Positions 2,406 through 5,173 of a stretch of DNA of 5,173 nt are shown here, piece after piece (the stretch's first letter is position 1; every line of letters starts with the position of its first letter). The notes under the pieces were generated by a model. It saw only the letters and a list, made by a program, of their open reading frames with translations, searched no databases and was not told the origin of the DNA. The DNA comes from a bacterium (GTDB taxonomy: Bacteria; BMS3Abin14). The stretch spans positions 1-5,173 of the forward strand of contig JARGFV010000151.1 of NCBI GenBank assembly GCA_029210545.1, given 5' to 3'. The position numbers and the translations under genes were made by a program.

Positions 2406-2555
2406 TGATGGACTCGCAAAAAGTCCATCAACGCACCCCGCGCGGGGTGCCCGGATCGATGACCGGCAAATATGTCAGCGATCCGTGAGGAAAGGGAAAA
2501 CGACGCTTTTCCCTTTCCGTGGAGCGAAAAGTCCCGGATTGGACTTTTTGCGACC
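2406..2555. repeat. Dispersed multi-hairpin repeat, copy 1 (complete), MITE-like or REP-like
   Basis: This element of about 150 bases is built from consecutive inverted repeats. Hairpin 1 is 2406-2430 (9-bp stem, loop CGCAAAA). Hairpin 2 is an 18-base perfect palindrome at 2433-2450 (GCACCCCGCGCGGGGTGC). Hairpin 3 is 2452-2485, with one A-G mismatch. Hairpin 4 is 2489-2518 (12-bp stem, 6-base loop). Hairpin 5 is 2524-2551 (11 bp with one G-T pair). In addition, 2414-2427 (TCGCAAAAAGTCCA) is a perfect 14-base inverted match to 2540-2553, so the ends of the element can also pair with each other. A second copy in the same orientation begins at 5070, and identity between copies starts sharply at TGATGG. 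The element covers the 3' end of the small membrane protein gene. No transposase is encoded. It could be a non-autonomous mobile element or a REP-like sequence mobilised in trans; either is inference. Confidence 0.85.
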
Positions 2556-2781
2556 CTATCAACTGTACCACCTGGAAAAGCGCATAGGCACCCAGGCCGG
2601 CTGCCGCGATCCCGTAGAACCGAAAAGCCATGACGTGGTAGGGATCCGAAGAGAGGTCTTCGCGCAGGTAGGAACTGGCGCAGCGGCAAACCGCCCTCAT
2701 GCCCCACCGGGGAAACAGGGCGAACACGAGACCCGGGATCAGGACGATGGAGCAGATGACGAGGGAGATCGTGATGTCCAC
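2428..2781 (-). CDS. Small two-helix membrane protein with a repeat-derived C-terminal tail
   Basis: A probable small inner-membrane protein of unknown function. From the GTG at 2781 it has 117 residues; the open frame extends 12 codons further to a TTG at 2817, but neither start has a good ribosome binding site. The core has a hydrophobic segment (ISLVICSIVLIPGLVFALF), a polar stretch with FPRWGMRAVCRC and SSDPYHVMAFRFYG, then a second hydrophobic segment (IAAAGLGAYALFQVVQLIG). This layout resembles short two-helix proteins of the DUF6199 kind, which are about 60-80 residues long; that resemblance is from memory. The native part is about 76 residues. The last 41 residues, beginning SQKVQSG, are encoded by the dispersed repeat, and the TGA stop lies in its first hairpin. 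The tail therefore looks acquired when the repeat inserted. No partner gene is evident. The hydrophobic pattern supports a real gene, though its small size leaves doubt. Confidence 0.55.
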   Translation of the reverse strand: MDITISLVICSIVLIPGLVFALFPRWGMRAVCRCASSYLREDLSSDPYHVMAFRFYGIAAAGLGAYALFQVVQLIGSQKVQSGTFRSTEREKRRFPFPHGSLTYLPVIDPGTPRGVR

Positions 2782-2787
2782 CTTTCG

Positions 2788-2817
2788 ATAATACCGGCAA
2801 CAGCTTTCCCGAGGCAA
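2788..2817 (-). promoter_or_regulatory. Possible sigma-70-type promoter for the small membrane protein gene
   Basis: On the minus strand, TTGCCT (2812-2817) and TATTAT (2788-2793) are separated by 18 bases. They match the -35 and -10 consensus at 4 of 6 and 5 of 6 positions. If used, transcription would start almost at the GTG at 2781, giving a nearly leaderless message and excluding the upstream TTG at 2817. Such hexamers occur by chance, so this is only a candidate. Confidence 0.28.
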
Positions 2818-2932: not shown

Positions 2933-3018
2933 TGTCATTCCGGAAATCACGCCTGTTTGTCGCGGCGTAGTCATACCTTTGGTGTGACGAAGACGGGCAG
3001 GGTGATTATCCGGGATAC
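2933..3018. repeat. Dispersed repeat of the TGTCATT...CCGGGAT type, unit 1
   Basis: The unit opens with TGTCATT (2933), contains a 40-base block at 2957-2996, and ends near CCGGGAT (3011-3017). Within the block, GTCATACC and GGTGTGAC form an 8-bp hairpin with a TTT loop and one T-G pair. ACGCC (2949-2953) can pair with GGCGT nearby. Unit 2 follows 94 bases later. Similar sequences beginning TCATTGCGAG and ending GAAGCAATC are, from memory, common intergenic repeats in several bacterial phyla. Confidence 0.7.
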
Positions 3019-3026
3019 AAACGGTA

Positions 3027-3117
3027 TGTCATTGCGAGTCACGCCGACTTGTCGCGGCGTAGTCACGCCTTTTGCGTGACGAAGACGGATGGCGCGTGAC
3101 GAAGCAATCCCGGGATC
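3027..3117. repeat. Dispersed repeat of the TGTCATT...CCGGGAT type, unit 2
   Basis: This unit has the more canonical ends: TGTCATTGCGAG at 3027-3038 and GACGAAGCAATCCCGGGAT at 3099-3117, where ATTGC and GCAAT are inverted. Its 40-base block (3049-3088) is identical to that of unit 1 (2957-2996) except at four positions, all in the hairpin. ACGCCG (3041-3046) and CGGCGT (3055-3060) form a further short stem. Direct orientation and adjacency of the two units suggest tandem duplication or repeated insertion. Confidence 0.75.
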
Positions 3118-3277: not shown

Positions 3278-3317
3278 TCCTCCCAGTTCGTGACCAGTCG
3301 GTCACCAACTGGGAGGA
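3278..3317 (+). promoter_or_regulatory. 40-base interrupted palindrome: likely TetR operator and/or RBS-masking hairpin
   Basis: The left arm TCCTCCCAGTT (3278-3288) is the exact inverse complement of AACTGGGAGGA (3307-3317). Inside it, GTGACC (3290-3295) pairs with GGTCAC (3300-3305) around a 4-base centre, with one C-C mismatch between the two blocks. The inner TGACC-N4-GGTCA is of the size and symmetry expected for a TetR-family operator, suggesting autoregulation by the gene that starts at 3322. The right arm also contains most of the ribosome binding site GGAGGAG (3312-3318), so the same sequence in RNA would fold it away. Operator function is inferred. Confidence 0.65.
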
Positions 3318-5003: not shown

Positions 5004-5069
5004 AAGAAAACCCACAAGACAAATCCAGGATGTAATGGACTTGTTGCCGTTGTGTCCTGCTCTGAAATT

Positions 5070-5173
5070 TGATGGACTGGCAAAAAGTCCATCAATGCGC
5101 CCCGCGCGGGGCGCCCAAATCAATGACTCACACCGTAAGTCATTGATTTGTAAGGAAAGGGAAAACGACGCTT
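5070..5173. repeat. Dispersed multi-hairpin repeat, copy 2 (cut by the window end)
   Basis: This is the same element as at 2406-2555, in the same orientation, matched up to the window edge (5173 corresponds to 2508). Hairpin 1 is 5070-5094, extendable by one pair, and its loop is GGCAAAA instead of CGCAAAA. Hairpin 2 is the palindrome GCGCCCCGCGCGGGGCGC at 5097-5114. Hairpin 3, 5116-5150, is a perfect 13-bp stem with a 9-base loop. The left arm of hairpin 4 starts at 5153. Stem differences from copy 1 are mostly compensated on the opposite arm, while the loop of hairpin 3 is not conserved. It lies 115 bases past the stop of the substrate-binding protein gene. Confidence 0.85.

Follow-up and report, generated by a model that had tools for sequence, protein, structure and literature searches.

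The window analysed here, a stretch of 5,173 nucleotides forming the bacterial contig JARGFV010000151.1, contains two copies of a repeat that folds into several hairpins and whose stems differ by substitutions that preserve base pairing. Such a pattern raises the question of what maintains the fold: the original prediction proposed selection on the folded form, as in a structured RNA or a single-stranded DNA transposition substrate. Our analyses indicate that the repeat is very probably a MITE moved in trans by an IS1182/ISNCY-related DDE transposase, with its interior hairpins as passengers and its stem changes arising at the DNA level. The locus provides a worked case of real covariation among repeat copies that originates in a DNA transposon and can mislead RNA searches based on covariance. 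It also allows us to describe a group of MITEs with ends shared across Desulfobacterota and several further phyla.

Element borders and the insertion signature

The MITE belongs to a multi-copy group without coding capacity, with lengths from 45 to 279 bp. The copy in the window (GATGG...CTATC, 154 bp) occupies 2407–2560 on the forward strand, as established by flank matching over 57 elements and by empty sites; the original prediction had placed the element in a box at 2406–2555, which misses these borders by 1 and 5 bases. On either side are the target duplications AACAGT (2401–2406) and AACTGT (2561–2566), neither assigned to a strand, which match at only 5 of 6 bases here whereas many other copies match at all six. 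The left terminal inverted repeat, GATGGACTCGCAAAAAGTCC, is found at 2407–2426 on the forward strand and the right one at 2541–2560 on the reverse strand (reverse complement GATAGGGTCGCAAAAAGTCC); among 36 copies, these repeats of approximately 20 bp are paired in 90% of cells and have an invariant core. Five hairpins are described on the forward strand. Hairpin 1 pairs the first 8 bases of the left terminal inverted repeat with 2422–2429, and is succeeded by the GC-rich hairpin 2 (2433–2450), by hairpin 3 (2452–2485), which has a variable loop and carries a GGATCGATGACC...GTCAGCGATCC module in the window copy, by hairpin 4 (2489–2518), which has a 12-bp stem (GGAAAGGGAAAA / TTTTCCCTTTCC), and by hairpin 5 (2524–2551), formed by an inverted copy of the terminal repeat core that lies inside the element (GCGAAAAGTCC / GGACTTTTTGC). 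A second copy was also correctly anticipated, at 5070–5173; it starts one base later (5071–5173, forward strand), after a left flank of AAATTT at 5065–5070, and is cut off by the contig end.

Insertion leaves a consistent signature. When left and right flanks were compared across 57 elements from the window genome, a list in which a few entries are the same element read from both strands, agreement was confined to six positions and showed a preference for the target AANNTT; its two free central positions agree in 81% and 70% of cases, against 31–32% expected, and the positions beside the six match at expectation. The same 6-bp result was obtained for 18 elements from other, mostly Desulfobacterota, genomes, with the target ANNNNT. 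An 8-bp duplication (AAnnnnGA), hinted at by single copies, was ruled out by the chance-level matches outside the six positions. Empty sites are also present: a diverged duplicate of another repeat in the same genome reads CCCGCAACTTTATCACC where the filled copy reads AACTTT-188 bp-AACTTT, and a second empty site, AACCAT, was found in a Desulfobulbaceae MAG. A 6-bp duplication together with empty sites is the mark of a DDE-type transposon and not of IS200/IS605 or REP elements. We propose that an IS1182/ISNCY-related DDE transposase, acting in trans, would recognise the MITE ends over about 18–20 bp and insert the element at AANNTT by a 6-bp staggered cut, which would generate the 6-bp duplication.

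Free-standing elements of 45–46 bp consist of just two terminal repeats back to back, and in three genomes they carry perfect 6/6 duplications (AACTTT in the window genome, AAACAT in a family member and ATCTTT in the Desulfuromonadales MAG37). Hence, the hairpin interior is dispensable for insertion. These natural units suggest what the minimal transposable sequence is, and hairpin 5, which with the right end makes up the right third of the 154-bp element, resembles them. An unlikely alternative is that selection acts on the modular hairpin interior itself, which might, for instance, form a DNA structure that increases transposition or shields nearby genes; this MITE lineage would then be evolving a folded, mobile cassette built around a minimal transposon of 46 bp. 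Under the preferred MITE reading, the interior hairpins would be passenger modules that insertion does not require.

Covariation of the stems

The paired substitutions that prompted the original prediction were confirmed base by base: 2435A-2448T becomes 5099G-5112C in hairpin 2, and 2453G-2484C, 2454G-2483C and 2458G-2479C in hairpin 3 become A-T pairs at 5117/5149, 5118/5148 and 5122/5144, while the A-G mismatch at 2459/2478 is an A-T pair in the second copy. That the stems covary beyond chance was borne out by larger samples. An alignment of 36 full-length copies from the window genome shows pairing in 98.7% of the cells of the five-hairpin structure. Of the 50 stem pairs, 7 have changed on both sides, in 29 cells, whereas the shuffles average 2.8 pairs and 6.9 cells; none of 500 shuffles reached the observed covariation, a result that is no probability given that the aligned copies share kinship. 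When pairing partners were slid by 1–3 columns, only 0–2 double-changed pairs were obtained. The third pair of hairpin 2, A-T or G-C, is represented by G-C in 23 copies, A-U in 12 and A-C in one, and in hairpin 4, 5 of the 12 pairs change on both sides among 54 oriented copies.

In three copies, L001, L002 and L005, the three changes in hairpin 3, the mismatch and the loop are all found together, and the same hairpin is found as an extra module in longer copies (L051); a module swap therefore explains the block. The hairpin-3 changes are best counted as one event, and the four substitutions as fewer than four independent events. Stepwise independent changes do occur among copies at pairs 47/79 and 48/78, which appear as AG/CT, GG/CT and GG/CC.

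Significant stem covariation, strong folding on both strands (z -7.9 and -9.0, far below shuffled controls) and T-runs after stems at the element ends could be taken to indicate that the element carries or spreads a structured RNA, or a terminator that works in both directions, in which selection on the transcript fold drives the covariation. However, an Rfam scan of the window returned no match at E<=1. A functional RNA transcribed from one strand should tolerate G-U pairs better, yet half-changed transition pairs number about 7 G-U against 8 A-C copies in the 36-copy set, a count that omits columns 7/17, which an indel disrupts, and 121/144, at which G-U is the most frequent pair. In hairpin 4 of the 54 oriented copies, the corresponding figures are 6 against 6. 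These numbers are small; neither kind of half-change clearly outnumbers the other, and hence neither strand stands out as the transcribed one. The orientation of neighbouring genes also resembles the background (5 convergent, 3 divergent and 12 tandem, against 46, 49 and 206), and a terminator role was dropped on account of this unremarkable context. The strand-specific structured RNA suggested at the outset gains no support from the missing Rfam match, the equal folding of both strands or the symmetry of half-broken pairs, and we consider selection on a transcript very unlikely to be the source of the pattern. The stems do covary, and a DNA-level origin is the most economical explanation. Palindrome-preserving change, the alternative that the original prediction itself named, combined with exchange of whole hairpin modules would fit the pattern best; paired changes probably arise from palindrome correction, through template switching between arms, and from swaps of whole hairpins between copies, rather than from RNA selection.

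The candidate transposase and its rivals

A candidate helper is encoded in the window genome by a 520-codon transposase gene (contig C1:15778–17337), the product of which has DUF772 and DDE_Tnp_1 domains over the Pfam cut-off. Its best NCBIfam model is IS1182, with ISNCY (for which only a generic model scored) and IS5 behind, and all are below their cut-offs; copies of the helper score 116–171 bits, or 145–171 in longer copies, against the curated IS1182 cut-off of 270 (NF033551). The likely helper is a DDE transposase of the IS1182/ISNCY kind, assigned to a subfamily only tentatively. From the window-genome copy, approximately 77 residues are missing towards the end of the DDE domain; in relatives, this segment includes the motif GVEATMSEYDR and presumably the last catalytic acid. 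Neither the window genome nor the family yielded an intact partner transposase; the other family copies are fragments, and copies could be missed in these draft assemblies.

The helper element has ends similar to that of the MITE, GATGGACCCGCAATTAGTC on one side and GACGGCATCGCAAAAAGT on the other. A relative in genome G009 starts with AATAAT followed by GACGGACTCGCAAAAAGT, which matches the MITE end at 17 of 18 bases, and a complete relative in a Nitrospirae MAG has the same ends with AATTTT on both sides; the 6-bp flanks are clean only in this Nitrospirae copy, being unequal in most others. By comparison, agreement with the MITE end is limited to 11–14 of 18 bases at 18 of 20 control loci carrying other transposases, and the controls include one locus (L032, 16/18) that contains part of a neighbouring MITE copy.

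MITE-like elements were found exactly six bases from the helper end on both sides at L220 and L222, at L224, and on one side of the window-genome copy; at the first two, this arrangement is seen at L220 925–3017 and L222 972–2928. The element ends are GA...TC, and targets show a slight tendency to be preceded by TC and followed by GA; from these few cases, element borders may themselves be preferred targets. A strict search for such end-to-end pairs detected only one in 376 kb of the window genome. Two longer segments were rejected as autonomous elements: a 2-kb interval between two ends (C3:15321–17369) comprises two separate MITEs around ordinary genes, and a 3.76-kb interval with equal AACTTT flanks (C1:15585–19347) is more simply a MITE beside a 1.67-kb IS and unrelated genes. 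Among inverted end pairs in relatives (L053–L065), of which L053 was fully translated, no transposase-bearing element was recognised.

Other means of movement can be weighed against this candidate. The single-stranded substrate of the original prediction would be an element of the REP/BIME or IS200/IS605 type, mobilised by a Y1 (RAYT) transposase, and hairpins are indeed typical of such elements; the window genome has two Y1 transposase genes, one of them on the same contig as a MITE copy. The terminal inverted repeats, 6-bp target duplication and clean empty sites nevertheless refute it, and Y1 genes do not co-occur with the ends across family genomes: the end-rich genomes G006 (80% complete) and G007 (98% complete) have no Y1 match, while G001 and G002 have Y1 genes and no ends, which is suggestive only as these are draft genomes. 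We therefore attach almost no credence to movement by a Y1 enzyme. A transposase other than the IS1182-like one might instead be responsible, given that family copies of the IS1182-like gene are all broken or partial and that two MITE copies are identical over 150 bp, so that some activity is probably recent. Against this, 15–17 of 18 end bases and the AANNTT target are common to the IS1182-like elements and not to the other transposases examined, and a different enzyme is in our view decidedly improbable.

Distribution and comparison with known elements

The genome of the window (2.72 Mb in 241 contigs) contains about 40 near-full matches to the 150-bp stretch among the matches listed; the window copy is identical over 150 bp to another copy at C3:44361–44510. 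Exact matches to the end motif GGACTTTTTGCGA number 305, compared with zero occurrences of the reversed motif. The repeat lies at the ends of several contigs and has probably contributed to the fragmented state of the assembly. A tandem array of elements of approximately 157–161 bp, belonging to a related subtype and including an N stretch in the assembly, was observed at L052 3900–4290 (C6:3900–4290). The ends are present in 10 of 12 family genomes (all except G001 and G002) and essentially absent from 49 sampled genomes of other lineages, with 0–1 matches each, the same level as the control. A scan of named genomes places them mainly in Desulfuromonadales, Desulfobulbaceae and Desulfobacterales, with single end-bearing genomes labelled Nitrospirae, Chloroflexi, Acidobacteria and Bacteroidales, MAG labels that can be wrong. 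In an even sample of 247 genomes from the phylum of one Desulfuromonadales MAG, about 20 have a longer end motif, one of them with 156 matches. Related ends thus occur across Desulfobacterota and a few other phyla.

Of the 25 full elements within 376 kb of the window genome, 20 are located in gaps between predicted genes, though only 13% of the sequence is non-coding; the remaining five lie within crude ORFs, some of which may have been created by the element itself. In the window, a small membrane-protein-like ORF (2428–2817, reverse strand) reads through into the MITE, which may supply its C-terminus. Other repeats were also observed there. The contig starts inside a second repeat family (1–75, ends CTAGSAGYSTGTCGGA...TCCGACACGCTGCTAG); since hairpin ends of a similar type flank a locus with an IS1182-type transposase in the relative G003 (L076), this repeat may be another MITE/IS pair. 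Two 50-bp repeats at 2947–3088, 86% alike and 92 bp apart (TCACGCC...TTGTCGCGGCGTAGTCA...GTGACGAAGACGG), are probably a third dispersed repeat. A 94% inverted repeat at 3278–3317, with 18-bp arms and a 4-bp spacer, is situated immediately upstream of the probable start of a gene for a TetR-type regulator and is a candidate operator.

REP/BIME sequences, with their RAYT, are likewise intergenic multi-copy hairpins, but to our knowledge REPs have neither target duplications nor long terminal inverted repeats, both of which are present here. The candidate helper shares its DUF772 and DDE domains with IS1182 and with ISNCY (the ISDol1 group), although it differs from IS1182 in scoring below the curated cut-off. 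ISfinder lists 6–7-bp duplications for ISDol1. The hairpin-rich MITE family was not found in the literature searched, where its end sequence is absent in a relevant context, but the kind of element is known. The Chunjie MITE of Geobacter uraniireducens is short and non-coding, has terminal inverted repeats and direct repeats, and occurs in tens of copies of 178–235 bp (PMC10969869). Compared by description only, the present MITE is alike in these respects apart from length, its copy in the window being 154 bp, and related ends are also common in Desulfuromonadales, the host lineage of Chunjie.
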